Positions 38,220 through 59,546 of a DNA stretch of 64,000 nucleotides are shown in pieces. Numbering within the stretch: position 1 is the stretch's first letter; every line of letters starts with the position of its first letter. A program made the translations under genes and the position numbers. Source of the DNA: an uncultured Sphingopyxis sp. (lineage in GTDB: Bacteria; Pseudomonadota; Alphaproteobacteria; Sphingomonadales; Sphingomonadaceae); contig CALMYE010000139.1 of NCBI GenBank assembly GCA_937873425.1, forward strand, positions 43,941 to 107,940, read 5' to 3'. The notes under the pieces were generated by a model that was given only the letters and a program-made list of their open reading frames with translations, was not told the DNA's origin and searched no databases.

Positions 38220-38963
38220 ATGCCGACGATGGACGCTGCGCATGCTTTTGCGCTCGACGTCACGCGGGTGAAGGATGCGGCGGGTCTGGCCGATCTGCTG
38301 GCGGAGGCCTGCGCGCGCATGGGCTGTTCCTGGTTCGCGCTGAGCCACCATGTCGATTTCCTCGCGGCTCCCGACAGGGGTGTTCGCGTCCACAACTATC
38401 CCGAGGATTGGGCGCGCTGGTTCGACGAGCGCGGACTTGGGCTCACAGATCCCGTGCATCGCGCCAGCCACCGCAGTCTCGAGGGTTTCTTTTGGCGCAA
38501 CATGAAGCCGCTCTCGGGCGAACGCCCCGAGGACGAACTGGTTCTCAGCGAGGCGCAGCGGCACGGAATAGGAGACGGGCTTACCATACCGGCGCACATT
38601 CCTGGCGAGGCGCATGGCTCGGTGTCCTTCGCCTGGACGCCGGGGATCGCCGCCAATGATATGGCGCTGCTCTTTGCTAGAATGATCGGTGGGCCGGCCT
38701 TCGAAGCCGCGCGCCTGCTCGCCAATCCCGAACTCGCGCAGGTCGGGCCGCGACTGACCGATCGCCAGCGCGAATGCCTGATCCTGTCGGCCAAGGGGAA
38801 CAGCGCTCCGAAGGTCGGTCGGATCCTCGATCTCAGTCCCGACACGGTTCGCGAGCATCTTCGCAACGCGCGGCAGCGTTACGACGCGAATGGCGGGATC
38901 ACGCTGACCGTGCGCGCGCTTTATGCCGGCGACCTCAGCTACGAGGATATCGCCAAGCGCTGA
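38220..38963 (+). CDS. luxR: LuxR family quorum-sensing regulator
   Basis: A 247-residue transcription factor. The N-terminal autoinducer-binding domain shows the conserved aromatic and acidic positions in VHNYPEDWARWF and LTDPVHRASHRS, and a Phe/Trp patch FFWRN. The C-terminal LuxR helix-turn-helix is LTDRQRECLILSAKGNSAPKVGRILDLSPDTVREHLRNARQRY. It is followed at 92 bases by the synthase gene on the same strand, so it is the cognate receptor. The start could be 38220 or the next in-frame Met at 38229; no strong Shine-Dalgarno favours either. Confidence 0.9.
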   Translation: MPTMDAAHAFALDVTRVKDAAGLADLLAEACARMGCSWFALSHHVDFLAAPDRGVRVHNYPEDWARWFDERGLGLTDPVHRASHRSLEGFFWRNMKPLSGERPEDELVLSEAQRHGIGDGLTIPAHIPGEAHGSVSFAWTPGIAANDMALLFARMIGGPAFEAARLLANPELAQVGPRLTDRQRECLILSAKGNSAPKVGRILDLSPDTVREHLRNARQRYDANGGITLTVRALYAGDLSYEDIAKR

Positions 38964-39054
38964 ACTTTTTTCGTCGACACCCCCCGATCGTGCTATGGTG
39001 GAGCCGCAAAAAGCCGTTCAATTGGATGGTCTCTTTCGAAAAGGAGACACATCC

Positions 39055-39672
39055 ATGCTTTCGGTAATCGACCATTCCAACCGCGCACACGAGCATCAAT
39101 TGCTCCGCGCGATGTTCGAGGCGCGCAAGCGCGTCTTCATCGATCTTCTGAAATGGGACCTGCCGGTGCTCGCCGACCGGTTCGAGATCGATCATTTCGA
39201 CGATCCCCACGCGACCTATCTGATCGTCGGCGATCAGGACGGCGGGCATCTCGCCTCGGCGCGCCTCCTTCCCACCACGCGCCCGGCCCTTCTCGACGGT
39301 CTCTTCCCCGGCCTCGTCAACGGCATCCCGCCGTCCGGTCCCGATATCTTCGAGATCACCCGCTTCTGCCTGTCGCCGGGGATCGGTGCGCGTCAGCGCC
39401 GCATCGCTCGCGACACGCTTCTTGCCGGGCTGATCGACTATGCGCTCGCTAACGGCATCCGCTCCTACACCGGCGTCGCCGAGCTCGACTGGTTCGCTCA
39501 GATCCGGACCTTCGGCTGGGATTGCACGGCGCTCGGCGAACCCGGCATTTACGATGGCCGCGCGCTGACTTCGCTGCGGATCGAGATCGACGCCGACACC
39601 CCCGCAAGGCTCAAGGCGGCGGGGATTGTTTCGGGCAGCGCTGCGACGCCGGTCGCGGCCAATGCAGCGTGA
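39055..39672 (+). CDS. luxI: LuxI-type acyl-homoserine lactone synthase
   Basis: Makes N-acyl-homoserine lactone from S-adenosylmethionine and acyl-ACP. The product has 205 residues, the usual length. Family-invariant residues are visible in the N-terminal half: FEARKRVFIDLLKWDLP, then EIDHFDDPHATYL with the acidic pair, SARLLPTTRP, and FEITRFCLSP with the Glu and Arg. AAGGAGAC lies 7 bases upstream of the ATG. The next gene, phyH, starts 13 bases after the stop. Confidence 0.93.
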   Translation: MLSVIDHSNRAHEHQLLRAMFEARKRVFIDLLKWDLPVLADRFEIDHFDDPHATYLIVGDQDGGHLASARLLPTTRPALLDGLFPGLVNGIPPSGPDIFEITRFCLSPGIGARQRRIARDTLLAGLIDYALANGIRSYTGVAELDWFAQIRTFGWDCTALGEPGIYDGRALTSLRIEIDADTPARLKAAGIVSGSAATPVAANAA

Positions 39673-39685
39673 AAGGAGCGGGGCC

Positions 39686-40597
39686 ATGAGTACCAATATT
39701 GCTGCGGCAGAGAGCCATCAGCCGCCCTCCGCCTCGATGCGGGCGCTCAAGGAAGACGGTTATGCGATCGTCCGCTCAGCCGTTCCCGCCGAGCTGATCG
39801 CGGCGATCGATCGCGACCTCGATCCGCGCTACGCCGCGACGCCCTTTTGCGAGGGCGGCTTCTATGGCGAGCGCACCAAGCGCTTCGGCCGCCTGCTCAT
39901 CCGCTCGCCGCACGTCGGCGCGCTGGTCATGAACCCGGCGATCCTCGCCCTCGCCGAGGCCGCGCTCGGCGACTGGTGCGAGCGTATTCAGCTCAATCTC
40001 GCCCAGGCGATCGAGCTGCATCCGGGAGCGCTTCCGCAGTTCCCGCATCGCGATCAGGACATGTGGCAGGGGACGCTCGGAGAGGTCGAGTATCTCGTGA
40101 ATGTGATGTGGCCGCTGACGCCCTTCACCGCGGAGAATGGCGCCACGATCATCTGGCCGAACAGCCATGGGCTCGAAGCGCTTGTCGAGGAGCCGGCGGA
40201 AGCGCCGATCATTGCCGAGACGATGCCGGGTGACGCTATCGTCTTCCTGGGTTCGACGCTCCACGGCGCCGGCGGCAATTGCAGCCCGGCGGCGCGGCGC
40301 GGGATCATCATCAGCTACTGCCTCGGCTGGCTGAAACCTTACGAGAACCAGTGGCTCGCCTATCCACCCGACGTCGCGAAGGACTTTCCGCCCGAGCTGG
40401 CGGCCTTGACCGGCTATGTCCAGCATCGCCCAAACCTCGGCAACTTCGAGGGTCAGTGTCCCTCGATCCTGTTCCGCGGCTATCCCCCCGACCCGATCGC
40501 AGCCGTGGATGCTCTTCGCCCAGATCAGCAGGCGCTTCTTGCTGACTATATCGGTGAGCAGCGATCGTTGGGCGAGGACGGGACGCTGGCGGCATGA
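39686..40597 (+). CDS. Phytanoyl-CoA dioxygenase (PhyH) family protein
   Basis: A 303-residue Fe(II)/2-oxoglutarate oxygenase. The facial triad is H121 and D123 in FPHRDQD, with H193 in TLHGAGGN, and R205 in RRGIIISY is the likely 2-oxoglutarate anchor. A phyH gene directly downstream of luxI has been reported as a conserved arrangement in sphingomonads; a role in modifying the acyl signal is a fair guess but unproven. GAAAGGAG precedes the ATG. The stop overlaps the start of the GntR gene by ATGA. Confidence 0.85.
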   Translation: MSTNIAAAESHQPPSASMRALKEDGYAIVRSAVPAELIAAIDRDLDPRYAATPFCEGGFYGERTKRFGRLLIRSPHVGALVMNPAILALAEAALGDWCERIQLNLAQAIELHPGALPQFPHRDQDMWQGTLGEVEYLVNVMWPLTPFTAENGATIIWPNSHGLEALVEEPAEAPIIAETMPGDAIVFLGSTLHGAGGNCSPAARRGIIISYCLGWLKPYENQWLAYPPDVAKDFPPELAALTGYVQHRPNLGNFEGQCPSILFRGYPPDPIAAVDALRPDQQALLADYIGEQRSLGEDGTLAA

Positions 40598-41217
40598 GCC
40601 CCGGCGCTACGATGGAGCGGGTCTACATCGACCTAAAGGTGCGCATTATGAGCGGCGCCTATCCGCCCGGGACGCGCCTCGACCCGCGGCAATTGGCCCG
40701 CGCGTTAGGTGCGAGCGCAACGCCGGTGCGAGATGCCCTTCATCGCCTGTCCGGAGAACGCATCGTCGATAGCTGGCACCAAGAAGGTTTTCGACAGCCC
40801 TTGCTGGCTGAGGCAGACCTTGTTGAGTTGTACGAATGGGGTGGGATGCTACTCGCACTTGCGCTGAAGGGCAGGCACCCTTCGCCGAATCTCCGGGCGG
40901 GACTCAGCGAACTGCAGCGGATCGAGCCTTATCCGGAGGCGATTGATTCGCTGTTTGGTGTCATCGCCGTCGGCGCTTCGAATCGCGAACTTCGATACGC
41001 CATCGTGAACTTTATCGAGCGAAGTAGGGCTTTTCGTTCGGCGGAGCTACGTATCGACGCCGCATCGCGCGCCACTCTGGCTGCGATGGAGGAAGACTAC
41101 CGGTTCGGCCGTTGGACAAGTTTACGCAGCAAAATCACGAGCTTCCATCGTCGGCGTACCCGGCAAGCCGGACGTATTGCTGCGGCAGTGAGGCCGCGCA
41201 GCGACCCGCTCCGATAA
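40594..41217 (+). CDS. GntR family transcriptional regulator
   Basis: A 207-residue regulator. The N-terminal winged helix is MERVYIDLKVRIMSGAYPPGTRLDPRQLARALGASATPVRDALHRLSGERIV in two parts, a textbook GntR domain; the C-terminal effector part is helical and short for FadR type. The start overlaps the phyH stop (ATGA), so it may be read from the quorum-sensing transcript; a second Met is at 40612. Base composition is more AT-rich than phyH and matches the lasso genes downstream. GntR genes accompany several isopeptidase-type lasso clusters, so it probably controls the precursor promoter 98 bases downstream. Confidence 0.85.
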   Translation: MSPGATMERVYIDLKVRIMSGAYPPGTRLDPRQLARALGASATPVRDALHRLSGERIVDSWHQEGFRQPLLAEADLVELYEWGGMLLALALKGRHPSPNLRAGLSELQRIEPYPEAIDSLFGVIAVGASNRELRYAIVNFIERSRAFRSAELRIDAASRATLAAMEEDYRFGRWTSLRSKITSFHRRRTRQAGRIAAAVRPRSDPLR

Positions 41218-41225
41218 CATTCGGG

Positions 41226-41242
41226 TTATAGCAAAACTATAA
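41226..41242 (+). promoter_or_regulatory. Candidate GntR operator at the lasso promoter
   Basis: TTATAG and CTATAA form a perfect 6-bp inverted repeat with a 5-base spacer (CAAAA), 9 bases after the GntR stop and 73 bases upstream of the lasso precursor. It overlaps the only good -10-like sequence in the gap (TATAAA at 41238-41243). The AT-rich dyad size and position fit a GntR operator. Confidence 0.5.
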
Positions 41243-41314
41243 AATTCCTATTCCAAATCAAAGGCGTAGCTTTGACCTTGCCGCAATTCCGCGGCATCAA
41301 CCAAGGAGGGTCCC

Positions 41315-41449
41315 ATGGACCGCATCGACAACGCCGAAATCGAAGAACTGGGCGTCGCCAGCGTCGAAACGCTCGGCGGGCTTCTGCCCTATCCCGAGGA
41401 TGGCTCGGTCATCCACTTCAAGCCGGACGGCGCGATCACCGCCGACTGA
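41315..41449 (+). CDS. Lasso peptide precursor, 44 aa
   Basis: The precursor is too short for ordinary ORF lists but has AAGGAGG at an ideal distance. Residues 1-20 (MDRIDNAEIE-ELGVASVETL) are the leader, with the conserved Thr at the penultimate position (T19). The predicted core is residues 21-44: GGLLPYPEDG followed by SVIHFKPDGAITAD. Gly1 would be joined to Glu8 or Asp9, both at permitted acceptor positions for an eight- or nine-residue ring. Bulky residues I13, H14, F15 and K16 could lock the thread. The final ITAD resembles the ITADD tail I recall for sphingopyxin I. The B, C and isopeptidase genes next to it confirm the call. Confidence 0.9.
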   Translation: MDRIDNAEIEELGVASVETLGGLLPYPEDGSVIHFKPDGAITAD

Positions 41450-41457
41450 CGGGATGG

Positions 41458-41484
41458 CGGACGCGGCGCACCGCGCCGCGTCCG
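41458..41484 (+). other. Intercistronic hairpin between lasso A and B genes
   Basis: A perfect 12-bp GC-rich stem (41458-41469 with 41473-41484) closes a 3-base ACC loop, 9 bases after the precursor stop and 10 bases before the B start. Hairpins here are known in other lasso operons and are thought to raise precursor mRNA relative to the enzyme genes. No T run follows, so leaky attenuation or 3-prime protection is likely. Confidence 0.75.
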
Positions 41485-41494
41485 TACTGCCTCA

Positions 41495-42154
41495 ATGGAC
41501 CATCATCTCCCACCCCACATCAGCTTCGCCTTCCTGGGCGGCGGTGCAGTTCTCCTCGACATTGAGGCGGACCGCTACTTGATGCTCCGAGGTGCCGAGG
41601 TTGGCGTCCTCGAAGCGCTCGGCGCTGGGCTCACGACGGCGGCTATCGAACCTGCGTTAGGCAGGCTGTCCAGACGCCGCCTCATTGGCGACGGGCCGGG
41701 CCCCTCAATCGCTCCAATTTCCGCGCCCATCGCAACGAGCAGCGCACTCGAGCTGGCAGGTCCGAGCCAGCGTGCTGGCGCGCTGGAGATCGCACGTTAC
41801 CGGCTCGATGCGGCTCTCCGGCTACGTTTGCGCGGTCTCGGACAAACCATAGCCCAATGGCGCCGCTTGAAGAATAACCTCCTTACCGCGGAGACAATGG
41901 TGGATCGCCGACATGCCTGTGCGGTTGCCCGTGGATATGCGGCGGCGCGCGTCCAGCTGCCTTGGCGGCGTCTTTGCGTGCCCGATAGTCTGGCCTTGGC
42001 TCGCTACCTCTGGCAGCGCGGAATACCCGGCCAGGTCTATTTCGGTGTCAGGCTTGATCCCTTTGCGGCGCACGCCTGGGTTCAACACAATGAAATGGTG
42101 CTGTCCGACAACGTCAATGTGGTCGCTGACTATACGCCGGTGTTTCGGCTGTGA
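41495..42154 (+). CDS. Lasso peptide B protein: RRE plus transglutaminase-like leader protease
   Basis: Cleaves the leader from the precursor. A single 219-residue protein fuses a PqqD-like recognition element (about residues 5-70, ISFAFLGGGAVLLDIEADRYLML) to the cysteine protease domain. The catalytic Cys161 lies in WRRLCVPDSLALARYL, His193 in DPFAAHAWVQ, and D205 is the likely acid. This is the single-protein (B) form of proteobacterial clusters. No Shine-Dalgarno is visible, the hairpin sitting immediately upstream. The stop overlaps the C gene start (GTGA), so the two are coupled. Confidence 0.92.
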   Translation: MDHHLPPHISFAFLGGGAVLLDIEADRYLMLRGAEVGVLEALGAGLTTAAIEPALGRLSRRRLIGDGPGPSIAPISAPIATSSALELAGPSQRAGALEIARYRLDAALRLRLRGLGQTIAQWRRLKNNLLTAETMVDRRHACAVARGYAAARVQLPWRRLCVPDSLALARYLWQRGIPGQVYFGVRLDPFAAHAWVQHNEMVLSDNVNVVADYTPVFRL

Positions 42155-43851
42155 CGTTACGTATCGCCCTCATCATCGGCCCGAGCGATCGCAACATTCC
42201 CGTCGGCTTTGTCGAGGCCGGGACGGTCGGGCGAGCCCGGCTAATTGTGGAAAAGGATACACCCGCCGAGATCTCGAACGGCACTGCGCTTATTGGCTGG
42301 GCCTTTCATCGGCAGAGTTCGGGAGTTTGCGAGCATTTGACCGCGATCGAGGTGGACCGGCTCGTGTCGAGCGAAGGGGCATGGGCCATCAAGGAGCTAT
42401 GGGGCAACTTCCTGCTCTTCTGGGCTGACCCGGAAGGGCGCATTTTGCTGCTTCGCTCCCCAATGACCGGACCAGCCCTATTCTGTTTTGAAGATCGCGA
42501 TGGGCTTGCGATCGCTTTCACCGATCTCTCACTCGCACGCAGCCTCGGCTTTCGGCTCGATCAGCCTGACCCCGAACGCATCGACGCGTGGATGCGCTTC
42601 CCTCTACTTCGCGGCCCTGATGCTGAATTGCGCGGTGTGCGTGAACTCCTTCCGGGGGAGGTTATCGCCTTGGGGTCGGTGCGGCCGCTGGCCACAAGCT
42701 GGTCGCCATGGGCCCACACGCGCCGCTCGCCTGCTCGGATCGATCCCGAAGATCTGCGCAACAAGGTCAGTCGGACGGTGTCGGCCTGGAGCATGCGCTT
42801 CGAGCGTATCCAGCTTGAGCTGTCGGGAGGGATCGACAGCAGCATTATGGCGGCATGCCTCGCCGGCCGACGCAGACCTTGGCGCGCCCTGACAATGGCG
42901 ACCAGCGATCCCGACGGCGACGAGCGTCCCTATGCGCGCGCCGTCGCCGAACGTGTCGGAACGCCCCTTGCGGAATGGCAGCGTCCACCGTTCGGGGATC
43001 CGATGGCTCCGCTCGAAATTCTGCGCGCGCGTCCGGGCGGCTTCGGCCTGCTAGGACCAAGTGACCGCGCTTACCTCCAAGGCGCCCGAGAGTTCGAGGC
43101 AGATGCGATCTTCACAGGCACCGGCGGCGACAATGTCTTCGGCTATCTGACATCGGCGGCGCCCATTCTCGACGCGCTACGTTACGCTGGGCCGGTCGAA
43201 GCATGGCGCGCTGCCGGCGACCTTGCCCGCCTTGCCAATGACAATATGTGGCGTGCCCTTGGCTATTCGGCAAAGCGACTGCTGAGACCGCCGCCAATGT
43301 GGCCGGTTGATCACAGCCTCCTCACGCGTCGCTATGCGCGAGACTATCCTGAGCACCCCTGGATGGCTGACGCAGACCGGGCATCCCCCGGACAGCAGGT
43401 CTATGCGATCAAGCTTCTCATCGCACAGCCGTTCCTCGACGGCTATGATCGCGCCTTGGCAATGCCGATGATCGCCCCGTTGCTCTCGCAGCCAATCATC
43501 GAATTTACGCTCGGCGTGCCGAGCTGGCAGTGGGGCGAAGGCGGCCAGAACCGCGCGCTGGCGCGCAGGGCCTTTCGCCAAGACCTGCCAGAGATGGTAA
43601 TCGAGCGACTGGGAAAGGGGCGTATATTGTCGGTATTCCTGCCGGCGTTCGAGGCGCATCGCCGTCGACTACGTTCCTACCTCCTCGACGGGTGGCTGGC
43701 GGGAGCGGGCCTTCTTGACCTCGAAGCTGTCGGGGCATTGTTTGCCGACAACGTGCGGCCAGACCCCGTGATGGTGACGCGAATATTGAGCTTCGCCGAC
43801 ATTGAGCGCTGGGCGCGGTCGGTGTCGGGCCATCCGGATGTCGCTATTTAG
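42151..43851 (+). CDS. Lasso cyclase (C protein), asparagine-synthetase-like
   Basis: ATP-dependent enzyme that activates the acceptor side chain of the core and forms the macrolactam ring. The product has 566 residues. The N-terminal glutaminase-like domain lacks the Cys2 nucleophile of real asparagine synthetases, as usual for lasso cyclases. The ATP-pyrophosphatase P-loop is SGGIDSS at residues 225-231, followed by a second motif FTGTGGDNVFGY. The GTG start overlaps the B stop. A long hairpin follows the stop, then the convergent isopeptidase gene. Confidence 0.92.
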   Translation: MTLRIALIIGPSDRNIPVGFVEAGTVGRARLIVEKDTPAEISNGTALIGWAFHRQSSGVCEHLTAIEVDRLVSSEGAWAIKELWGNFLLFWADPEGRILLLRSPMTGPALFCFEDRDGLAIAFTDLSLARSLGFRLDQPDPERIDAWMRFPLLRGPDAELRGVRELLPGEVIALGSVRPLATSWSPWAHTRRSPARIDPEDLRNKVSRTVSAWSMRFERIQLELSGGIDSSIMAACLAGRRRPWRALTMATSDPDGDERPYARAVAERVGTPLAEWQRPPFGDPMAPLEILRARPGGFGLLGPSDRAYLQGAREFEADAIFTGTGGDNVFGYLTSAAPILDALRYAGPVEAWRAAGDLARLANDNMWRALGYSAKRLLRPPPMWPVDHSLLTRRYARDYPEHPWMADADRASPGQQVYAIKLLIAQPFLDGYDRALAMPMIAPLLSQPIIEFTLGVPSWQWGEGGQNRALARRAFRQDLPEMVIERLGKGRILSVFLPAFEAHRRRLRSYLLDGWLAGAGLLDLEAVGALFADNVRPDPVMVTRILSFADIERWARSVSGHPDVAI

Positions 43852-43890
43852 CGGCGATGGACCGGAACATCGGCCGCGATCCAGCAGATG

Positions 43891-43930
43891 TCGTGCCGGG
43901 CGGCCCCCGGGGAAGGCCCGCCCGGCACGA
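43891..43930. terminator. Bidirectional hairpin between convergent lasso genes
   Basis: A perfect 13-bp stem (43891-43903 with 43918-43930) with a 14-base loop that can pair further (CCCC/GGGG). It lies between the stop of the cyclase gene (43851) and the stop of the isopeptidase gene (43933), so it can end both transcripts. No T or A tract. Confidence 0.65.
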
Positions 43931-43932
43931 AC

Positions 43933-45909
43933 CTACCGCGCGGGCACAGGCAAGGACGGTCCCGCGCGATAATGGCGCCAGCGGTTATATTGTTTGGATT
44001 TCCCGGGAGCTGGGTCCTCCTCGCCGGTCAGCCAGAAACGGAACCAGTCGAGGTTGCGTTCGTAAACGGCGCGCTTGTGCCGCAGCTGATATTTATTGTG
44101 CAGCTCGTCCGGATAGACGACCATTTCCGCAGGCTTTCCGGCGCGTTTGAGCTTGGTATGGAGCTCCGCCGTCCAGGCTGCTTCCGCGTCGGGCAATTGC
44201 ATTAGGATGGGAGTGTTGATCGCTTCAACATTGTGAACTGCAGAGGCGAGACGCCAGCGGGCGGGGTCGGCATCCGGGTCGCCGATGCTCCAGTAATCCT
44301 TTAGCATGGCTTCAAAGCCTCGATCCGGAACTGCGTTGGTCCAGAAATAATGAGGCGAAATCTGACCCGTGCCTATCGTCGCGGCTTTGAAATTCGTGCT
44401 GTGCCGGACCGCCCAGAGCGCTACACCCGAGCTGTGGCTGAAACCGGCGATGCCGACGCGGTTCGGATCAACGAGTTTGCGTTGCCCAAGGTCGGCGATC
44501 GCGGATGCGATGACCGTGCGGGCAAGTTCATATGTTCCATCGGTTCCGCTTCCGGGCGGGCCCCGAAACGGATCAATGCAAAGGACCGCGATTCCATGTT
44601 CCGCAAGGGGCAGCATCGGCAATTCTTCGCCCGTGCCGCCCTTGAGGAACCCGGCACAATGATAATTCTGGACCACGACGGGTGGCGCTTTCGCCCGTGG
44701 GGGGCTGAGCAATATCGCGGAGTATCCGCCTGGCAGCTCAAGCGACTTCGCCTCCGCGTCAATTCTGGCGGCAAGCGCAGAGTTCGGTTCGAATAGTGGT
44801 CGGCGCTGCCCTGTCGCAAGGTCGATCCGGACGAGGCGTGGCGGAATGAGCGGCATGCTTTCGGCGCAAATCAGCGCGCGCATGGTGACGGCGCATCGCG
44901 ATGGCCGGTCGGCGAGACGCAATGCTCCGTCGGTGATTGCGACTTTGCGAGCCGTCGCAGCCCCGACTTTCCATAGCCAGACGGCTTCGCGGGCGCTTCC
45001 TTCGTCGACAAACGCCAGCAAGATGTCCTGATTTGGCAGCCACGTGGTTGCGAGCAGCTTTGGCGAACGGCAGAACTCCGCCTCGCATTGGATCCGCTCT
45101 CCGCCGGGGCGCGTGACCACGAGGGAGGCGCTGCCTGCCTTACGCAATATCTCTGCTTTGCTGCCATCGGGCGCTGCAGCCCACGGACGTTGGGATGCGG
45201 AGTGGAGCGAGAATTGGTCATTGGGCGCGGAATGGGGGGTGGCGCCGACGCTCGGCACAAAAATCTCGCGGCGCGGCGCATCCCACAACAAACTTTTTCG
45301 GTCGAACCAGGGTCCGGAAAATCTCTGCATGACGCGCTTGCCGTCTTCGATCACACCGCCCGCAATCGCCTGGTTGAGGTCGACGCGTGCGTCGACCAGC
45401 ACGCCCCCTTCGTAGGCGGCGGTCTGTGCGCGAGAGATCTCGGCACGCGTCGCACCGACAGTGTAGCGAAGTAGCCCCCCATCGTCCGATACGGCGAAGT
45501 CCAGGATGTCGGCATCGTTCCGAACCTCCATTTTGGCGCCGCCATCGTCGCGCCAGTGCCAGAGGGTCACTTCTCCATCGCGGAAGGCGAGAAAACGAAA
45601 GCCTTTACTGTCCTTGTCCCAGATCGGAGTCTGATCGGAGACGAGCCCTGCTCCATCGACGCGTGCGCTGCCTCCGCTCGCCGCAAGTTGGGGCGGCCCA
45701 TCCACGCTCCCCACATACCACTCGAGCGTTATGGCATTGCTCTCGAGGGAAGCGCGGCTCACCCGGAAGGCGAAGCGTTCGCCATCAGGCGATAGAGTGG
45801 GGCCGCTGATCTCGGACACCTCGACGAGGTCGGCGGCCCCGACCGGCTCGCGGGGTGTCGCCGCCGCCGCGGGTGCGGCGACGGCCAGCAGTGCGGCGGC
45901 AATTACCAC
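43933..45909 (-). CDS. AtxE2-type lasso peptide isopeptidase
   Basis: A serine hydrolase of 658 residues that opens the macrolactam ring of the cognate lasso peptide. A signal peptide at residues 1-17 is followed by a beta-propeller (about residues 25-370) and an alpha/beta hydrolase domain. The nucleophile is S491 in AGFSHSSG, the likely acid D574 in QLPDAEAAW, and the His H604 in DELHNKYQ. Isopeptidases of this kind occur only beside lasso clusters that lack an ABC exporter gene, which fits this locus. The start is a GTG at 45909, overlapping the receptor stop by 7 bases. Confidence 0.9.
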   Translation of the reverse strand: MVIAAALLAVAAPAAAATPREPVGAADLVEVSEISGPTLSPDGERFAFRVSRASLESNAITLEWYVGSVDGPPQLAASGGSARVDGAGLVSDQTPIWDKDSKGFRFLAFRDGEVTLWHWRDDGGAKMEVRNDADILDFAVSDDGGLLRYTVGATRAEISRAQTAAYEGGVLVDARVDLNQAIAGGVIEDGKRVMQRFSGPWFDRKSLLWDAPRREIFVPSVGATPHSAPNDQFSLHSASQRPWAAAPDGSKAEILRKAGSASLVVTRPGGERIQCEAEFCRSPKLLATTWLPNQDILLAFVDEGSAREAVWLWKVGAATARKVAITDGALRLADRPSRCAVTMRALICAESMPLIPPRLVRIDLATGQRRPLFEPNSALAARIDAEAKSLELPGGYSAILLSPPRAKAPPVVVQNYHCAGFLKGGTGEELPMLPLAEHGIAVLCIDPFRGPPGSGTDGTYELARTVIASAIADLGQRKLVDPNRVGIAGFSHSSGVALWAVRHSTNFKAATIGTGQISPHYFWTNAVPDRGFEAMLKDYWSIGDPDADPARWRLASAVHNVEAINTPILMQLPDAEAAWTAELHTKLKRAGKPAEMVVYPDELHNKYQLRHKRAVYERNLDWFRFWLTGEEDPAPGKSKQYNRWRHYRAGPSLPVPAR

Positions 45910-48827
45910 GCGATAACGGCCTGTAGCGCCATGGTCCTGCCGATCGCGCTCGCCTGCTCGGGATCATAGGCGAGCGCGTAGCTGGGGCCCCGGAACTGCG
46001 CATAGGGCGGATCCTTGTCGAACAGATTGTTGATGCTGAAGCCGAGTCGAAGCGAACGACCCCGCAGATCGCCGATTCGCGCGCCGAGTTGCAGATCGAG
46101 GGTCGTCCAGCTCTTCACTCGCTCCGCGGGCGTGACGGTCAGGTTGCGGTACTCGCCGACATGATTGACCGCGAGACCCCCGTCGAACGCGCCCATCGAG
46201 AAGCCGGCGCGGCCGCGAAGGCGCAGCTTGACCGGATTTCCGAGCGTACCGACGACGCGATCTCGCGGCGCGCTGGCCGTAATCTGGTTGTCGATCGCGA
46301 ATAGCCGGGTGCCACCGACACTGAACGAAAAGATGCCTTCGCCAACGGGCCGCGAATAGGCGAGGTCGAAGTCGAGGCCGCGGATCGTCGAGGTCGAAAG
46401 ATTGCGAGTTCTGAGATCGATAATCGCGCGCACATCGCCGGGAGCAACCCCGAGTGCATTTGAGAAGTTCGGACCAGTAAAATAGCCGGTTACCGTGGCG
46501 AGGGCGGGATCGTCCTCAATGATCGGTGAATAGAGATCACGCCTATTGAGAATGTTCCGGCTATCGCTCGAGGCCGACGCAATGCGGTCCCGATAACGTA
46601 TGTCGAAATAGGTCAGCGAAAGCTTGGCGCCGGGAAGGGCGCGCGGTTCGAAGTCGAGCCCGGCCGTCCAGCTCTCGGCGCGCTCAGGCTGGAGCGCCGG
46701 TTGAAAGCCGAACAGGGCAAGCACGACGGTCTGCCCGGTCGGTGAGGACGGATCGGCGACCCGCAAGGTTTGGTAGAGCGCATTCGCCGTGCCGACCAGT
46801 TCGTCGAAGAAAGGAGCGCGGAACGATTTTCCGTAGGACGCACGCAACGCGACACCCGGCAGCGGCGTCCAGCGCGCTCCGAATTTGGGGTTCGCAGTGT
46901 CCCCGAAATCCGAATAATCCTCGTAGCGGGCAGCCGCCGATAGGGTCAGCGACCCAGGGAATGCGTCCCCGGCATCGAAGATTGGCGCGACCAGTTCGCC
47001 GTAAAAAGCTTTGATGATGCGCTTGTCGGGTAGGCCGGGGATGCCGATCACGAGCGGCGTATCGGTCACAAGATCGAGGGTCTGAGAAAAGGCGAAGCGG
47101 TCGCGGCGGTACTCGGCGCCGATTGCCATCTTAAGGTCGCCCGCGGGGAGAGACAACAATTTGCCGTCTGCGCGAAGCGCCGCCGTCCACACCTTGAATT
47201 GTGTTTCTGCGACGATGCTCCCGCGCAGGCTGTCGATGAGCGCTGGGTCGTTGACCGCGCCGTCGCCAAAGACATTGATCGCTTGCGCAGGACTGGTTGC
47301 CGCGACCGCCCGCGAGAAGCGGAGGCTATGCACGAGATTGAAGCTGTCATAGCGCTCCCGCTGCCGTCCGAACCCTCCGGTCAGTTCGATGACCCAGCTT
47401 CCGATGTCGGCCCGCGCTCCGACGACGTTGTTGAACGCCTTGGCTTTGCCACGCAGGCTTTCAGGACCGAACTCGGCGGCGGGATCATAGTAGACGGTGA
47501 CCGGCTGCCCCGTTCCGATGGGGTCGACATAATAGGGATTGGCGCTCGTCACGCGGACAGGCGTCGGGCCGCTCACACGGCGTCGGGCCTCGAAGTTGCG
47601 TTCTGAGTAAAGCGAGCGGGCGAAGATCGTGATAGTCGAGCCAAGCGATTGCTCGATGGCCGCGTAGAGACCCATCGTCTCCTGTTTGGGCAGAATGTCG
47701 GTATGTCGACGTGCGTCGCCGCGATTGAAATCAGCGCTGGGCGTAAGGTCGGCAGGAGTGAGATTGCGCCCGTCCTGGCCGCGCGGAATCAGGAACTTTT
47801 GGCCGTTCGCCGCCACGACAGTGCCGGGATTATTGTAGTTCGACCGGAGGTCGGGGCCGCCGAATGGTCGCAGATCCTCGGTCGCGAAGGGCCGCTTCGT
47901 CGCAGCCAGATTGCCGCGCTGGCTATATTCCCCCGCCACGACGATGTGGCCCGTCGACCAGCCTTTTCCTAGCATCTGGCTAATCTGGACCTCGCCATAG
48001 TCACCGTCTGCCGTGCCGGCCCGCAGGCGAGTTTCAGCGCCTTCGAAGCGGTTGCGGAAGCGAATGTTCACCACGCCCGCGACGGCATCCGAACCATAAA
48101 TTGCGGATGCGCCATCGGTCAGGATTTCGACACGATCGATTGCGATCGAAGGGACGAGCGAAACGTCGGCATAGGCGCCCGAACCGCCTCCAAGGGCCGG
48201 CCGGGATCCGTCGAACAGCGTCAGGGTGGCCCCTGGTCCCAGACCGCGGAGGTTGATGCCAGTGCCATAGGCTATGTTAGACGAGGCTTTGCCTCGGTTG
48301 CTGAAGCCGACATTCGCTTCGGTCGGACCGCCCGAGAAATTCTGCGGAATGGTCTGGATGAAATCGGCCAAAGTCGCGCGACCGCTCCGGTCGAGAACGT
48401 CGCGGTCGACCGTCGTCATGGGAGAACCAACTGGCCCTGCGCCACGGATACGAGAGCCTGTGACGACGATCGCTTCGTCGGTTCGATCAGTCGATCCAGT
48501 TTCCCGGGCATCGACGTTTCCCGACCGAAGCACCCATGCGCCTTCGACGAGTTCGATCGTCAGGCCCGTGCCGGAAAGGAGGCGCGAGAGGGCTTCGTCG
48601 GGAGAGAGTCGCCCGCGGACCCGGTTGCTGCGTCTGCCTTCAAGCAGGCTCGAAGCCGCGATGACCTCGCGGCCGGAAATGTCCGAATATTTGCGAAGCG
48701 CATCGCTAAGGCGCTGTGCCTCGATATTGTATGTCTGCTCGCCCGTCTGCGCACACGCGCTGGGTGCGTAAAATGCGGTCGCGGATACGCCCGAAGCCAG
48801 AGCGGCCGCGAAAAATTTCATCGTCAT
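45903..48827 (-). CDS. TonB-dependent receptor with STN signalling domain
   Basis: Outer-membrane import receptor of 974 residues. After a signal peptide (ending near ACA, residue 26) comes an STN domain at about residues 33-95 (NIEAQRLSDALRKYSDISGREVIAAS), the domain that talks to a FecR protein. A TonB box-like DEAIVVTGSRI is at residues 117-127, then the plug and a 22-strand-type barrel ending in aromatic Trp (VIAW). Neighbours indicate the ligand is the lasso peptide of this locus. GGGAGGG lies just upstream of the ATG. Confidence 0.9.
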   Translation of the reverse strand: MTMKFFAAALASGVSATAFYAPSACAQTGEQTYNIEAQRLSDALRKYSDISGREVIAASSLLEGRRSNRVRGRLSPDEALSRLLSGTGLTIELVEGAWVLRSGNVDARETGSTDRTDEAIVVTGSRIRGAGPVGSPMTTVDRDVLDRSGRATLADFIQTIPQNFSGGPTEANVGFSNRGKASSNIAYGTGINLRGLGPGATLTLFDGSRPALGGGSGAYADVSLVPSIAIDRVEILTDGASAIYGSDAVAGVVNIRFRNRFEGAETRLRAGTADGDYGEVQISQMLGKGWSTGHIVVAGEYSQRGNLAATKRPFATEDLRPFGGPDLRSNYNNPGTVVAANGQKFLIPRGQDGRNLTPADLTPSADFNRGDARRHTDILPKQETMGLYAAIEQSLGSTITIFARSLYSERNFEARRRVSGPTPVRVTSANPYYVDPIGTGQPVTVYYDPAAEFGPESLRGKAKAFNNVVGARADIGSWVIELTGGFGRQRERYDSFNLVHSLRFSRAVAATSPAQAINVFGDGAVNDPALIDSLRGSIVAETQFKVWTAALRADGKLLSLPAGDLKMAIGAEYRRDRFAFSQTLDLVTDTPLVIGIPGLPDKRIIKAFYGELVAPIFDAGDAFPGSLTLSAAARYEDYSDFGDTANPKFGARWTPLPGVALRASYGKSFRAPFFDELVGTANALYQTLRVADPSSPTGQTVVLALFGFQPALQPERAESWTAGLDFEPRALPGAKLSLTYFDIRYRDRIASASSDSRNILNRRDLYSPIIEDDPALATVTGYFTGPNFSNALGVAPGDVRAIIDLRTRNLSTSTIRGLDFDLAYSRPVGEGIFSFSVGGTRLFAIDNQITASAPRDRVVGTLGNPVKLRLRGRAGFSMGAFDGGLAVNHVGEYRNLTVTPAERVKSWTTLDLQLGARIGDLRGRSLRLGFSINNLFDKDPPYAQFRGPSYALAYDPEQASAIGRTMALQAVIAW

Positions 48828-48871
48828 TCATCCCTCCCGTGCGGCCGATTTTGGCCGTCTGAAGGGAAAAA

Positions 48872-48904
48872 ATGACGGGTGCTCCGAACACCCTATGGGT
48901 TTTT
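48872..48904 (-). promoter_or_regulatory. Candidate FecI-type promoter for receptor and isopeptidase
   Basis: On the minus strand AAAAACCC (48904-48897) is followed after 19 bases by CGTCAT (48877-48872), resembling the AAC-type -35 and CGTC-type -10 of many ECF promoters. The spacing is longer than usual, so this is tentative. An imperfectly central dyad GGGTG/CACCC (48877-48893) lies between the boxes. Confidence 0.25.
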
Positions 48905-48914
48905 CTTGGGCGTC

Positions 48915-49835
48915 CTAGTCGGATTTCGCGCCGAGAATTGGTCCGTTCGCACCGAACTCGACCTTGAGATCAAGCGCGGCGCCGAGCTTCAGCGCAAGTT
49001 TCCGGGCATCGGTCATGTCGAAGCGCCCCGTCACCTGCAGCGATGCCAACGCCGGATCGGCCAAGCTGATCTTGACGCCATTCTCGCGGCCCGCGCGGTC
49101 GAGGATCGCACCAAGCGGGAGATTGTCGGCCCACAGCGATTTGGCCGGGGTGTTCGCTTCCTCACCCGTGATCGGCTGGGGGCCTGTCGACCTGACCTCG
49201 GCGCGTTCGCCGGGACGGAGGCGAAGTGCCTTGCCGCCCTCGAGGCGCCGCACCTCGACCGAGCCTTCGACCAGTGCGATGCGCGGGACATCCGCGCGGA
49301 GATCGACCTCGAAGATGGTGCCGAGCGCGCGGGTGACCGAATCTCCGGCCTCGACGAGGAAGGGACGCGACGCGTCGTGTGCGACCTCGAACCTGGCGCG
49401 GCCGTCATACAGAATGACGCGGCGTTCGCCGTCCGAGAAGCGCGTCTCGATGCGGGCACCGTCCATCAGCGTCACGCGCGTCCCGTCGGCGAGCCTGCTC
49501 TCGCCTTGCGCCGAATTGGTGGCGATGATCGGCTGATCGCTGTCGCGGCCAACCAGATACCAAGCGAACCCGACCGCGATCACCGCAGCGAGAATTGTGG
49601 CAAAAGCCCATCGCCGCCCGCCGGGTTCACGCTCCCGAGCATCGGCCCGAACATCGGCCTCGATCCGGGAAGGCGACATGGCGGCGGCCCAGGTCCAATT
49701 GTCGCGCGCTTCATCGTAGGCCTTGGCATTGCCCGGCTCGGCCAGCCACTCGTCGAACGCTTCCCGGTGCATTTCGGAATCGGGTCCCATCATTTTGTCG
49801 AGCCAGGCAGTGGCTTCGCTTTCGGCGCGGCTCAC
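48915..49835 (-). CDS. FecR family anti-sigma/sigma regulator
   Basis: A 306-residue inner-membrane protein. The N-terminal cytoplasmic part holds the sigma-binding region (AWLDKMMGPDSEMHREAFDEWLA), the single membrane segment is at about residues 75-93 (WAFATILAAVIAVGFAWYLV), and the periplasmic FecR domain follows (RLADGTRVTLMDGARIETRFS). It receives the signal from the STN domain of the receptor and releases or activates the sigma factor. It overlaps the sigma gene by four bases and ends 88 bases before the receptor gene. Confidence 0.9.
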   Translation of the reverse strand: MSRAESEATAWLDKMMGPDSEMHREAFDEWLAEPGNAKAYDEARDNWTWAAAMSPSRIEADVRADAREREPGGRRWAFATILAAVIAVGFAWYLVGRDSDQPIIATNSAQGESRLADGTRVTLMDGARIETRFSDGERRVILYDGRARFEVAHDASRPFLVEAGDSVTRALGTIFEVDLRADVPRIALVEGSVEVRRLEGGKALRLRPGERAEVRSTGPQPITGEEANTPAKSLWADNLPLGAILDRAGRENGVKISLADPALASLQVTGRFDMTDARKLALKLGAALDLKVEFGANGPILGAKSD

Positions 49836-50410
49836 TGCTTACCCCGCGCGCGCTTGATGGCGGCAAGGGCTTTGGTCATATGGCTTTCGACCGTCTTCAC
49901 GCTGATTCCCTTGATTCGAGCGATCTCGGGATAGCGTAGTCCTTCGAAGCGATGCATCAGGAAAATCTCGCGCGTGAGCGGAGATAGCCTCGAAATGGCT
50001 CTTTCTGCCCGGCGCAGGACGTCTCGCGCCTCGAGCGCGGCGTGCGGGTCGCTCGCTCCCTCATGCTCGTCACTGAAACTGTCGTGCTGCGACCGGTGGC
50101 GGCGCGCGTCGGCGCGACCATATTCGGCGAGGAGCATCCGGGCGCTCTTCACCAGATAGGCGCCGGGGCCTTCGACCAGCGCAGCGAGGCCGCCTCGCGC
50201 GCTCGCAAAGCGGCTGAAGACTTCCTGCACAAGGTCGCCGACATCCTGGTTCGGGGCGCGTCCGCGGAAGAAGCGGGTGATGTGCGGCCGGTGCTCGGAG
50301 TAGATCGCCTCGATGCGCGCCGAGCGCCCGACCCGCTCCCAATCCTCCGGCGGCAAGGGGTCGCCGCCGGCAATACCCGGTCGCTCGCTGTCCTTGTCCT
50401 CGAAGTCCAT
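49832..50410 (-). CDS. FecI-like ECF sigma factor
   Basis: An ECF sigma factor of 192 residues. Region 2 is EHRPHITRFFRGRAPNQDVGDLVQEVFSRFA and region 4 is LSPLTREIFLMHRFEGLRYPEIARIKGISVKTVESHMTKALAAIKRA. The ATG at 50410 (MDFEDKDSERPG) is chosen over a TTG frame at 50476. With FecR it should drive the receptor-isopeptidase transcript in response to the extracellular lasso peptide. It overlaps fecR (ATGA). Confidence 0.88.
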   Translation of the reverse strand: MDFEDKDSERPGIAGGDPLPPEDWERVGRSARIEAIYSEHRPHITRFFRGRAPNQDVGDLVQEVFSRFASARGGLAALVEGPGAYLVKSARMLLAEYGRADARRHRSQHDSFSDEHEGASDPHAALEARDVLRRAERAISRLSPLTREIFLMHRFEGLRYPEIARIKGISVKTVESHMTKALAAIKRARGKQ

Positions 50411-50709
50411 ACCTGCCGCCTTCCCGTTCGGGACGAAGGCGGCAAGCCGGGCGTTGAGAACTTGCTTAGCGAACAAGCGCCGCCGCCTTTAGCCCTAAGG
50501 CTTGGACATGCGCAGCGGCCACCCGGCAGGATGGAATAGGAAGACTAAGCTAAGCAGGTTCTCACGCCTGGCACCGTGCGCCTTGCCCGATGCACTTCAA
50601 AGCATAGCCTTGCCGCTGCGGCATGCAAGCCGACTGCACCGAGATAGATCCAGATCGAGTCTATTCTCCGGAAACACGGCAGAACAGCTTCGGTGCTGCC
50701 GGGCTTCGA
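50411..50709. other. Intergenic gap, no gene seen
   Basis: About 300 bases between the ECF sigma gene start and the TerC stop. I see no ORF with a good ribosome-binding site. A weak hairpin (CGGCAG with CTGCCG, near 50681-50704) lies directly after the TerC stop and may terminate TerC. Confidence 0.5.
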
Positions 50710-54789: not shown

Positions 54790-54872
54790 GCGGCAGCCAG
54801 CCTGCGGCATCCGTGCGCATCGGAACAATCTTCCGGGTGCAAGGGTGCCGCCACCTTGTTAGGGTGACCCCA

Positions 54873-55802
54873 ATGCAGAGCAGCCTCGAACATCTTCCCC
54901 CGCACAAGCAACGCGAGATCGAGCGCGTCGTCGAGATCATCTTTGAGGAATTCGAGGATGCGCTGGCGCTCGCGACGCAGGACTGGAAGCGCAAGGGCCG
55001 GATTTCCAAGATCATCCTCTACGGCAGCTATGCACGGGGTGGGTGGGTCGACGAGCCGCACACGGCGAAGGGCTATCAGTCGGACTATGACCTGCTGATC
55101 ATCGTCAACGACAAGCGGCTGACCGATCGGGCGGACTATTGGTCGAAGCTCGACGACCGGCTCATTCGTGAGCTGTCGGTAACGAAGCGGCTCCGCACGC
55201 CGGTGAACTTCATCGTTCACAGTCTCGACGAGGTGAATGCCGGACTGACGCAGGGTCGCTATTTCTTCATCGACGTCGCTCGTGACGGGATCGCGCTGTA
55301 CGAGGCCGACGGGAAGGAGCTCGCAGAACCCAAGCCGATGACGCCGCATGCGGCGCTCGAGATGGCGCGCGAGTATTTTGATGAGTGGTATCCTAGCGGA
55401 GCGCAGTTTCTTCATCACTATCGAAGCGCGGTCGCTGAAGGTTGGTTGAACAATGCGGCCTTTCAGCTTCATCAGGCGACGGAACGATATTACCACTGCA
55501 TCCTATTGGTATGCACTTTCCACACGCCGCACATCCATAATCTTGTTTTCCTGCGCACCCAAGCCGAGCGGATCGATGATCGATTGATCGAGGCATGGCC
55601 GCGAGAAGTTAAGGCCGACCGGTCGCGGTTCGAAAAGTTGAAGGAAGCGTACATCAAGGCGCGCTATTCGAAGCATTACGCGATCACCGCCGACGAACTG
55701 GAATGGCTCGGCGCGCGGGTTCAGCATCTCGCCGATATCGTCGAGACTATTTGCCGTGACCGCATCGCTGAGCTTGAGGCAACAGCGCGTCAGGCAGGTT
55801 GA
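54873..55802 (+). CDS. Fused nucleotidyltransferase-HEPN protein
   Basis: A 309-residue protein. The N-terminal half is a minimal nucleotidyltransferase with G51-S52 in ILYGSYARGGW and D71xD73 in QSDYDLLIIV. The C-terminal half is a HEPN domain (AAFQLHQATERYYHCILLVCTFHTPHIHNLVFL). As separate proteins MntA and HepT make an AMPylating antitoxin and a HEPN RNase toxin; here both are in one chain, a known but less studied arrangement. It lies 83 bases after DUF736 and converges on the EexN lipoprotein. Toxin-type function is inference. Confidence 0.85.
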   Translation: MQSSLEHLPPHKQREIERVVEIIFEEFEDALALATQDWKRKGRISKIILYGSYARGGWVDEPHTAKGYQSDYDLLIIVNDKRLTDRADYWSKLDDRLIRELSVTKRLRTPVNFIVHSLDEVNAGLTQGRYFFIDVARDGIALYEADGKELAEPKPMTPHAALEMAREYFDEWYPSGAQFLHHYRSAVAEGWLNNAAFQLHQATERYYHCILLVCTFHTPHIHNLVFLRTQAERIDDRLIEAWPREVKADRSRFEKLKEAYIKARYSKHYAITADELEWLGARVQHLADIVETICRDRIAELEATARQAG

Positions 55803-55808
55803 GACCCG

Positions 55809-56039
55809 CTACTTTTTCCCGCGGAACCGCTCGAATTTGGCCTTTCCCTCGGCAGTCTCGACCGCGACATTGGCATTGCTGCATTCATCGCCGCGCTTGT
55901 CGCCCGCCGTGCAGCTTTGGACGACGTCGCGTGCCTCATCGAGATTGGCCTCGAAATATTGAACGCTGCGTGGCTCCGGCGGAGCACATGCTGTCAGGAT
56001 CGTCAGGCTGGCGATCGCCAGCATCTTGAAAATGATCAT
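55809..56039 (-). CDS. EexN family entry-exclusion lipoprotein
   Basis: A 76-residue lipoprotein with a signal and lipobox LTAC (Cys near residue 18) and the EexN-type mature part PRSVQYFEANLDEARDVVQSCTAGDKRGDECSNANVAVETAEGKAKFERF. EexN-like proteins in conjugative elements block entry of a related element. The ATG at 56039 is chosen because GGAGG ends 5 bases upstream; a GTG at 56045 overlaps that site. It is a sign of a conjugative element nearby, though no Tra/Trb genes are in the window. Confidence 0.8.
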   Translation of the reverse strand: MIIFKMLAIASLTILTACAPPEPRSVQYFEANLDEARDVVQSCTAGDKRGDECSNANVAVETAEGKAKFERFRGKK

Positions 56040-56248
56040 CGTCACCTCCGACGATCAACTCTAGCGTCGGCGACCCGGTCCATGCAGTGGCGATTTGAGA
56101 TTTAGAACCAAATTGAGGCTAGTTCTCCGTCCATCGGCCTATGTGAGCCAGTTTTGCGCCATTCTTAGCTCTCTCTCAAGCGTCGCATTGGGCGGCGAGG
56201 CTCAAGGGAACGATTGAGGAAATCCGTCGCAAAAGCTAGTTTGCAACG

Positions 56249-57325
56249 ATGAGCGAACCACCAGCACCGCGCGGACAGCGCCTCGTCACACCATATGCTT
56301 TCATCGATACCGAGGCTTTTCGTGCAGCGGGTCTCGACTGGCAATCGCGAACTTGGTCCAGCCTGATCGATCTAGCGTCGAAGAGCACGCTCGAGCCGAT
56401 CACGACTTCCATCACCACGCGGGAGGTTGAAGCGAGACTTTCGGAAGCGCTGGCGGAGGCGGAAGCAGCAGCGAAGAAGCACGGCGCGATTTTTGGCCAG
56501 CTTGGAGAAAGCGGTCCCTTTGGTGATACCGATCCAGCCGATCGGAAGGCACTGCTTCACGCGCGCTTTCGAGAATTCCTAGCGACAGCAAAATTTACCG
56601 AAATCCCCCTTGTTGCCGATCACAAAGCGATTTTTGACGATTATTTTGCTGGTGCTGCGCCCTTTGGGGAGGGCAAAAAAAAGAGCGAGTTTCCGGACGC
56701 CTTTGTGCTGTCGAGCCTCCTCGCCTGGATCCGGCCCGGTCGACCCAGAATATATGTGGTTGGCAAGGATCCGGACCTAGTGAAATTCTGCGAGGGACGG
56801 GACGATCTGATCCAATTGGACTCCGTTGCCCAGCTTCTCTCGCTGGCTCTGGCGTCAGCCCAGTTGGTGAAGCGTCTTGAAGCGCATGTCCGTGGAGACG
56901 CGTCCCTGCTCGAAAGGCTGAGGGCACGCCTTAACTCCTATCGTCCGCGCCGTGTCGATATCGAGGTTGAAGATGTCGAGTTCTTCGATCTTGAGATTTC
57001 GAGCGTGTTTCTCGTCGACGAATCCGAGGAGGGACAGGATTTTGTCCTTGAGGTCGAAGTCTTGGCTGAGGTCGAAGCCGACGTTCGTGAGACGGGTCAT
57101 GAGTATGTCATCTCGCGGCGGGGAGAGCCTGATTTGGATATTCGGACTTACCATGCTCGTCCAACTTCCAGCGCGGCTATTTATGTTGAGGTGCTGGTGT
57201 CTGAGGACGATAGTGGCGAAGAGCCAGCCTTGGTGACGACCGATTGGGCTATCACATCGGGCGATATCGAGATCAAATTGCCATCTCAGTTCAGCAGGCG
57301 TGAAATCACCCTCGAGGCGCGGTGA
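56249..57325 (+). CDS. PIN domain protein (DUF4935 type)
   Basis: A 358-residue protein with an N-terminal PIN-like nuclease domain: D20 in YAFIDTEAF, ITTSITTREVEARLSE, and the acidic SEFPDAFVLSSLLAWI and VVGKDPDLVKFC segments that complete the metal site. The C-terminal half is beta-rich and acidic. Family members are predicted RNases in conflict or stress systems. It is alone on its transcript, between EexN and the AbiE-like pair. Confidence 0.8.
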   Translation: MSEPPAPRGQRLVTPYAFIDTEAFRAAGLDWQSRTWSSLIDLASKSTLEPITTSITTREVEARLSEALAEAEAAAKKHGAIFGQLGESGPFGDTDPADRKALLHARFREFLATAKFTEIPLVADHKAIFDDYFAGAAPFGEGKKKSEFPDAFVLSSLLAWIRPGRPRIYVVGKDPDLVKFCEGRDDLIQLDSVAQLLSLALASAQLVKRLEAHVRGDASLLERLRARLNSYRPRRVDIEVEDVEFFDLEISSVFLVDESEEGQDFVLEVEVLAEVEADVRETGHEYVISRRGEPDLDIRTYHARPTSSAAIYVEVLVSEDDSGEEPALVTTDWAITSGDIEIKLPSQFSRREITLEAR

Positions 57326-59494: not shown

Positions 59495-59546
59495 TGACGA
59501 AGGCTGTGATCGCAGTCATGTTCCGGCACATTCCAGGAGCTTGACT

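Follow-up and report, generated by a model that had tools for sequence, protein, structure and literature searches.

A 64,000-nucleotide stretch of DNA from an uncultured Sphingopyxis sp. (contig CALMYE010000139.1 of assembly GCA_937873425.1, positions 43,941 to 107,940; hereafter the window) contains an intact isopeptidase-type lasso peptide cluster at 40,594-50,476, in which gntR and the genes A, B and C face the genes for an isopeptidase, a TonB receptor, FecR and FecI. Directly upstream of the lasso genes, and pointing in the same direction, lie luxR, luxI and phyH. We consider it fairly probable (roughly 0.62) that these genes form one composite locus, a quorum-sensing (QS) module fused to an isopeptidase-type lasso module, in which production of the peptide would be gated by cell density and followed by cognate recapture and sensing. 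What is observed directly is the gene content, the recurrence of the linkage, the operon-like packing of the genes, the conservation of catalytic residues, and a block-wise discordance between parts of the locus. The lasso machinery itself belongs to a known kind; what is new is its combination with a QS module.

The lasso cluster and the genes upstream of it

The lasso half of the locus opens with a gntR regulator gene (40594-41217, + strand; PF00392, 1.4e-14). It is followed on the same strand by the precursor gene A (41315-41449; 44 amino acids, with the ribosome-binding site AAGGAGG), by B (41495-42154; NF033537, E = 1.8e-18, above cut-off; Transglut_core3), predicted to be a fused B1-B2 protein for leader recognition and leader proteolysis, and by C (42151-43851; Asn_synthase PF00733, 9.7e-23), a predicted ATP-dependent macrolactam synthetase. 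Facing them on the - strand are an AtxE2-type isopeptidase (43933-45909; NF033523 lasso_peptidase, 521.6 bits against a cut-off of 400, 3.6e-156; best PDB match 5txc AtxE2, 1.3e-52), a TonB-dependent receptor with an STN signaling domain, plug, and barrel (45903-48827; PF07660, PF07715, PF00593), a FecR-like anti-sigma factor or signal relay (48915-49835; PF04773, 4.9e-15), and a FecI-like extracytoplasmic function sigma factor (49832-50476; PF08281, 2.4e-17; alternative ATG start at 50410). An original prediction, made from the sequence alone, had described a complete isopeptidase-type lasso locus here, and every part that it named is present, in the stated order and with open reading frames. 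Its limits of 40594-50410 cover the lasso half but are too narrow, leaving out luxR-luxI-phyH at 38,220-40,597. It also reported no ATP-binding cassette (ABC) exporter, and indeed none occurs among the genes identified at 38.2-53.7 kb; the downstream neighbors of the cluster encode TerC, a diacylglycerol-kinase-family protein, and a cation efflux protein. The window has, ahead of the precursor, the gntR gene and, opposite, the TonB receptor with its sigma/anti-sigma pair.

The catalytic residues, which the same prediction had regarded as visible, are borne out by alignment. Isopeptidase residues S491, E576, and H604 align with S527, E610, and H638 of AtxE2, which we take to be its catalytic residues, and this Ser-Glu-His triad is kept in 27 of 28 alignment rows (all that align there); PDB entry 5txe differs from 5txc at S527. 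The B protein has its protease residues Cys161 and His193 in 28/28 rows, together with Asp205 in 20/28 and Gly in the remaining eight, and the Ser and Asp of the SGGxDS motif of C are kept in 26/28 rows, again all that align. A search of viral contigs with the C protein gave no useful lead.

Of the three upstream genes, luxR (38220-38963, + strand; Autoind_bind PF03472, 2.1e-24, plus GerE) encodes a regulator of the kind that binds acyl-homoserine lactones (AHLs), luxI (39055-39672, + strand; PF00765, 2.4e-19) a predicted AHL synthase, and phyH (39686-40597, + strand; PF05721, 1.6e-21) an Fe(II)/2-oxoglutarate dioxygenase of the phytanoyl-CoA dioxygenase family. LuxI carries the signature residues of its family, with R24, F28, W34, D46, R70, E100, and R103 in 27/27 rows and D50 in 24/27, and it adjoins a LuxR in which W67, D77, and P78 occur in 26/26 rows and W64 in 22/26. 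The HxD...H motif of PhyH is present in 26/28 rows (all that align there). Packing is tight across the boundary between the two halves: phyH and gntR overlap by 4 bp, as do B and C, and the gap between luxI and phyH is 13 bp, a value that depends on the chosen start.

Linkage of luxI to lasso genes within Sphingopyxis

Across 80 Sphingopyxis genomes, one per species in the sample, we obtained 132 B matches and 127 LuxI matches. Taken together, 92/132 B matches have luxI within 20 kb. The linkage is tightest in the clade of the window's own B protein (22 B matches at ≥39% identity, the window included), where luxI lies 0-4 kb upstream in the same orientation in 21/22 and the remaining member begins at a contig end, with phyH in place. 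Of the 21 other clade members, 20 were retrieved; the full set of eleven genes stands in order in 16 of them, and contig ends truncate the other four (in L044 and L045 the precursors fell below the tblastn limit and were taken from a separate analysis). Among the 110 more distant B matches, 38 share the window's geometry, 33 have luxI elsewhere within 20 kb, mostly about 10.5 kb downstream from B on the other strand, and no luxI was found in that range for 39.

A second layout was found in nine clusters (L090-L093 and L095-L099), in which luxR-luxI-phyH-gntR is followed by fecI-fecR-receptor-isopeptidase, facing A-B-C; gntR was undetected in L099 and fecR in L097. Two of these clusters, both with luxR-luxI-phyH-gntR, encode the cores GEALIDQDVGGGRQQFLTGIAQD (L090) and GIEPLGPVDEDQGEHYLFAGGITADD (L091), which probably match sphingopyxins II and I, respectively. 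The sphingopyxin I and II clusters belong to Sphingopyxis alaskensis. These loci share the upstream genes with the window but differ from it in what the QS module precedes: fecI-fecR-receptor-isopeptidase in L091 and L090, A-B-C in the window. In one further case, on G036:C4 (L093/L094), B is followed by an additional receptor-isopeptidase set that has another luxI at its side.

Linkage beyond the genus and on plasmids

The association extends through the family. Among 397 family genomes, 66 outside the genus hold at least 78 isopeptidase loci (76 above cut-off), a lower bound because no more than three candidates were scored per genome. LuxI is present in 65 of these 66 genomes and was not found in G149. 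Relative to the 78 loci, luxI lies within 8 kb of 39 (21/26 genera) and within 16 kb of 52 (25/26 genera), against a chance expectation of ~1% for each locus, roughly estimated from a density of 1.4 luxI per 4 Mb. In 28 of the 52 linked loci the arrangement is window-like, with luxI past the 3' end of the isopeptidase gene on the opposite strand; in eight luxI is upstream on the same strand and in 16 upstream on the opposite strand. We read 12 of these 52 linked loci, hand-picked to cover the three geometries; all 12 carry luxR, luxI, phyH, and gntR, in three layouts. In an evenly drawn sample of 119 genomes, LuxI occurs in 11/12 isopeptidase genomes versus 25/107 others (Fisher p = 5e-6). A search of 290 genomes of the class turned up one isopeptidase genome from outside the family, G205, in which LuxI was not found, and the linkage counts accordingly speak for this family only.

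Two deposited plasmids, annotated by others, carry the same genes: p2 of Novosphingobium sp. ES2-1, typed conjugative, in the second layout, and unnamed1 of Sphingomonas paeninsulae in the window layout. The Novosphingobium cassette (L130; NZ_CP063447.1, 241348-263524) comes from an activated-sludge strain, and a cytochrome P450 gene and other metabolic genes adjoin it on the plasmid.

A probable specificity cassette between conserved flanks

Five Sphingopyxis relatives (L043, L053, L117, L118, and L119) were compared with the window, to which their DNA is 95-96% identical at 20-24 kb. Their QS and Fec proteins are nearly those of the window (luxR/luxI/phyH 91-100% and fecR/fecI 94-100% identical; terC 99% in the three where it is in view), and between these flanks identity falls to 30-47% for B, 36-55% for C, 35-52% for the isopeptidase, and 55-73% for the receptor. 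The same boundaries appear in 500-base bins of DNA: identity is 83-98% across 37.5-40.5 kb, drops to 64-74% or to sequence that does not align between 40.5 and ~48.4 kb, and climbs back to 90-98% in the full bins that follow. The six loci with these flanks, the window included, hold five core types, one with two precursors. L040 is the reverse case: A, B, C, isopeptidase, and receptor are 70-95% identical, the QS genes 71-77%, and fecRI 48-49%.

Distances over 22 loci follow the same division. Those of B, C, isopeptidase, and receptor correlate with one another at 0.80-0.97 and those of the QS block with the Fec block at 0.87, versus 0.19 between core and QS and 0.22 between core and Fec. The 22 were drawn from 28 candidates after removal of loci lacking a role, of L045 as a near-duplicate, and of L048 for its gaps. 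The core genes therefore co-vary at one site and are discordant with the conserved flanks around it, and, judged by this block-wise discordance, the peptide gene travels with those for the processing enzymes, isopeptidase, and receptor as a single specificity unit, whereas luxRI-phyH and fecRI remain in place. The gntR gene correlates at 0.60 with the QS side and at 0.30 with the core. It is accordingly not counted in the exchanged unit, since these values place it more with the QS side, although the window's gntR is only 65-66% identical to those of the five relatives, so in this haplotype it came with the core.

The precursor and its predicted peptide

The precursor reads MDRIDNAEIEELGVASVETL|GGLLPYPEDGSVIHFKPDGAITAD (leader|core), a short protein with Thr at leader position -2, Gly at core position 1, and an acidic residue within positions 7-9. 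Position 8 is Glu in 20/20 window-clade loci, which contain 11 different cores, and position 9 is variable; the core finder demanded an acid at position 7, 8, or 9 and not specifically at 8. Because Glu8 is invariant in the clade and position 9 is not, a Gly1-Glu8 lasso ring is the expected product of the window. Asp9 was considered as the ring acceptor and rejected, Glu8 being the residue common to all 20 loci.

The original prediction had called the peptide probably undescribed, which stands in part. The precursor falls below the cut-off of the NCBI benenodin-family model (NF033522; 27.7 bits against 33, E = 1.8e-6), matched no lasso peptide in the PDB (designed proteins only, best E 0.27), and had no match among PLSDB plasmids, and its core is not known to coincide with a described isopeptidase-type lasso core. 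On the other side, an identical core occurs in three more Sphingopyxis genomes (G036, G052, and G043), making the window core a recurring allele. Elsewhere in the genome set, five loci (L115, L116, L119, L120, and L126) have two different precursor genes in tandem ahead of a single B gene.

Candidate regulatory sites

Two conserved sequences may mark points of control. The luxI promoter contains a lux-box-like motif, CACCCCCCGATCGTGCTATGGT (38978-38999, + strand), the only match to its pattern in the window and a candidate LuxR site, a function we assign provisionally. By eye, a motif like CACCCCCCnnTcnTGnTATGGyG stands ahead of luxI in the type I loci displayed, and in part of the second-layout loci that position is taken by palindromes, for example TGCCCAnnnnTGGGCA. 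Just before the ribosome-binding site of the precursor is an inverted repeat, TGCCGCaattccGCGGCA (41279-41296, + strand), a candidate GntR operator or a hairpin of the 5' untranslated region. The repeat GCCGCaattccGCGGC lies at about -36 from the precursor and shows a paired change in L055. Perfect arms of at least 5 bp occur in 14/20 window-clade loci (the other six are imperfect) and in 10/11 loci of the neighboring clade, and a GCGAC...GTCGC repeat is found at a similar place in 3/8 second-layout loci. Perfect 6-bp inverted repeats turned up in 321 of 2000 random 70-mers and so are common by chance; the evidence is therefore the conserved sequence and place and not the repeat as such.

How the locus might work, and what weighs against it

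From the gene content and its conservation we infer every regulatory arrow of the following scheme, together with export, recapture, the ring, and the product. LuxI would make an AHL, and at high cell density LuxR bound to it would activate the luxI promoter and drive the tightly packed luxI-phyH-gntR. A-B-C could then come under control by read-through, by action of GntR on the conserved repeat ahead of the precursor gene, or by both. B would cut off the leader and C would close the Gly1-Glu8 ring, giving a threaded lasso peptide of 24 residues. Once released, the peptide might be recaptured by its cognate STN-type TonB receptor, which would signal through FecR and FecI to raise expression of receptor and isopeptidase, and the isopeptidase would then open the ring and end the signal. 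Peptide, synthetases, isopeptidase, and receptor would constitute one specificity cassette, swapped between species as a block within the luxRI-phyH and fecRI flanks.

A further step is to regard the system as quorum-gated, multi-allelic self-recognition, in which a cell, once density passes a threshold, makes, takes back, and senses no lasso peptide but its own. We put this forward tentatively, as a reading with the odds still against it. Its signal would have two keys, the AHL counting cells and the lasso peptide identifying kin. By analogy, agr/ComX-type loci likewise have signal, processing, and receptor genes that vary as a block within conserved flanks; their proteins are unrelated to those of the window, which combines an AHL system with a TonB/FecIR relay. 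If true, self-recognition would supply the function that isopeptidase-type lasso peptides still lack; a 2022 review calls that function enigmatic (PMC9266682). The AHL module near 52/78 out-of-genus loci and the co-transfer of peptide, isopeptidase, and receptor make the question of function testable, and if cell density is the inducing condition, this would tell chemists how native producers could be made to yield their peptides.

Several results count against a composite that works in this way. Many loci do without the QS genes: 39/110 of the distant B matches in the genus lack a nearby luxI, as do three isopeptidase loci out of the four that the window's own genome contains, and 26/78 out-of-genus loci are unlinked (13 on contigs with no LuxI match, 13 farther off), so quorum sensing is not obligatory. 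Where the module is present it need not act on the precursor, because in two of the three layouts it stands on the receptor side and not before A-B-C. In the third geometry (six loci, L132-L137; fecR undetected in them) it points away from fecI-receptor-isopeptidase; luxR and luxI are separated by 7.5 kb in L134, where B was outside the fetched stretch, and by 3.1 kb in L137. Some relatives look decayed (L114, L116, L118, L129, and L133): B stands without a detected C or isopeptidase in L114, C is split in L118 and L133, and FecI is missing from L116. In L129 (G004:C1:1166000-1182000) luxI has an in-frame TGA and luxR and phyH were undetected, an apparent decay of the QS half. The flank is not uniformly conserved either, with only 70-85% DNA identity to the five relatives at 35.5-37.5 kb, upstream of the QS genes. 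The core-QS and core-Fec correlations, weak as they are, exceed shuffled values (Mantel p 0.012 and 0.003, respectively), and scans for promoters and terminators gave no more than chance level.

Alternative explanations

The simplest alternative is an ordinary isopeptidase lasso cluster beside an unrelated QS locus, the neighborhood being accidental or merely inherited. The three luxI-free isopeptidase loci of the same genome would suit this account, and so would the review cited above, which in the sections covered describes the class as almost always accompanied by genes for GntR, a TonB transporter, and a sigma/anti-sigma pair, and lists these only (PMC9266682). Yet the linkage recurs in 25/26 genera, in three layouts, and on plasmids, LuxI is enriched in isopeptidase genomes, and an accidental neighborhood would hardly be expected to survive rearrangement. 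We reject chance proximity as very improbable on the linkage counts inside and outside the genus. A different doubt concerns PhyH, which might hydroxylate the lasso precursor instead of acting on an AHL: it belongs to the Fe/2-oxoglutarate enzyme family with its HxD...H intact, and CanE, for canucin, is a precedent for lasso hydroxylation, as the same review describes in part (PMC9266682). The distribution of phyH points the other way. It follows luxI at six loci (L103-L108) with no B, C, or isopeptidase match in the ~6 kb seen per side, and again at L101, whose contig ends ~2 kb past luxI; it is absent from both luxI-free lasso regions read, L109 and L113, each in the window's own genome. At another luxI locus unlinked to lasso genes, L100, no phyH could be convincingly identified, and L102 is truncated. 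Synteny of novR-novI-phyH has also been published for sphingomonads (PMC3704786; PMC4288048; PMC5012321), and in the portions covered two of these papers leave lasso genes unnamed (PMC3704786; PMC5012321). A dedicated tailoring role was rejected on this distribution and is improbable, and phyH most likely belongs with the QS side.

Two further readings accept the composite and give the peptide another use. It might be a scavenger under QS control, a carrier of metal or hydrocarbon that the receptor takes up and the isopeptidase sets free, and not a recognition signal. The logic of receptor, FecR, FecI, and hydrolase resembles that of siderophore systems, a view reported in the review (PMC9266682). 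A Sphingomonas BPH mutant deficient in phenanthrene utilization carried its transposon in a lasso B2 gene (PMC11006600), and LuxI/LuxR reportedly regulates degradation of polycyclic aromatic hydrocarbons in another member of the Sphingomonadales (PMC7432010), each according to the parts of those sources covered. Five different core types at a single site, with receptor and isopeptidase varying alongside, would not be expected of a carrier for a common ligand, and we hold this reading possible though doubtful. Alternatively, the peptide might be a narrow-spectrum antibacterial under density control, in which case the isopeptidase would provide immunity and allele exchange would reflect a bacteriocin-type arms race. 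Bacteriocins typically co-transfer toxin, immunity, and receptor with allelic diversity, which fits the mosaic. The producer, however, has its own uptake receptor, and known isopeptidase-type lasso peptides, astexin-1 excepted, are said in the sections of the review covered to lack antimicrobial activity (PMC9266682). We regard an antibacterial function as unlikely.

Relation to known systems

Like benenodin, astexin, and sphingopyxin clusters, the window has GntR, A-B-C, an AtxE2-like isopeptidase, a TonB receptor, and FecR/FecI, with no ABC exporter found; unlike those clusters as described in the parts of the literature covered, it adds luxR-luxI-phyH. Sphingomonad novR-novI-phyH loci have the luxR-luxI-phyH order of the window, in agreement with the placement of phyH here, and differ from it in that lasso genes are not named as their neighbors in the portions of the papers covered. 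Those portions hypothesize that phyH is QS-regulated (PMC3704786) and report that novI3 of N. subterraneum is also followed by a GntR gene (PMC5012321). The composite locus would give a common context to two separate sphingomonad observations, phyH adjoining luxI and GntR before the lasso precursor. No link between luxI and lasso clusters in sphingomonads appeared among the open-access matches listed, in the parts of them covered, and priority is unproven; by term search, both "lasso" and "sphing" are absent from the main text of a survey of luxR-linked biosynthetic clusters (PMC5872303).

Other features of the window and its genome

Elsewhere in the window's genome, L113 (G000:C278:36500-56000) has two divergent isopeptidase-receptor-fecR-fecI sets and one B-C set, with no luxI. 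Positions 1-58,580 of the window are 99.8-100% identical to G036, which is listed as another species. The alignment stops at 58,580, the end of the gene at 57489-58586, and this may be an insertion, a replacement, or an assembly boundary.

Defense- or toxin-antitoxin-like genes occupy 54810-63264, with a dip in GC content to 0.54 at 56-58 kb. They encode a protein with HEPN and polymerase-beta nucleotidyltransferase domains (54810-55802), a PIN_12 protein (56249-57325), a winged-helix protein that matches AbiEi_2 weakly (57489-58586), a product weakly matched by PADLOC PDC-M21B (58586-59494), and a SEC-C protein of 996 amino acids with weak matches to Cap4 nuclease and LmuA (60274-63264, - strand). 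The nucleotidyltransferase-HEPN domain pair of 54810-55802 also occurs on the plasmid at L130, in a gene beside the precursor.

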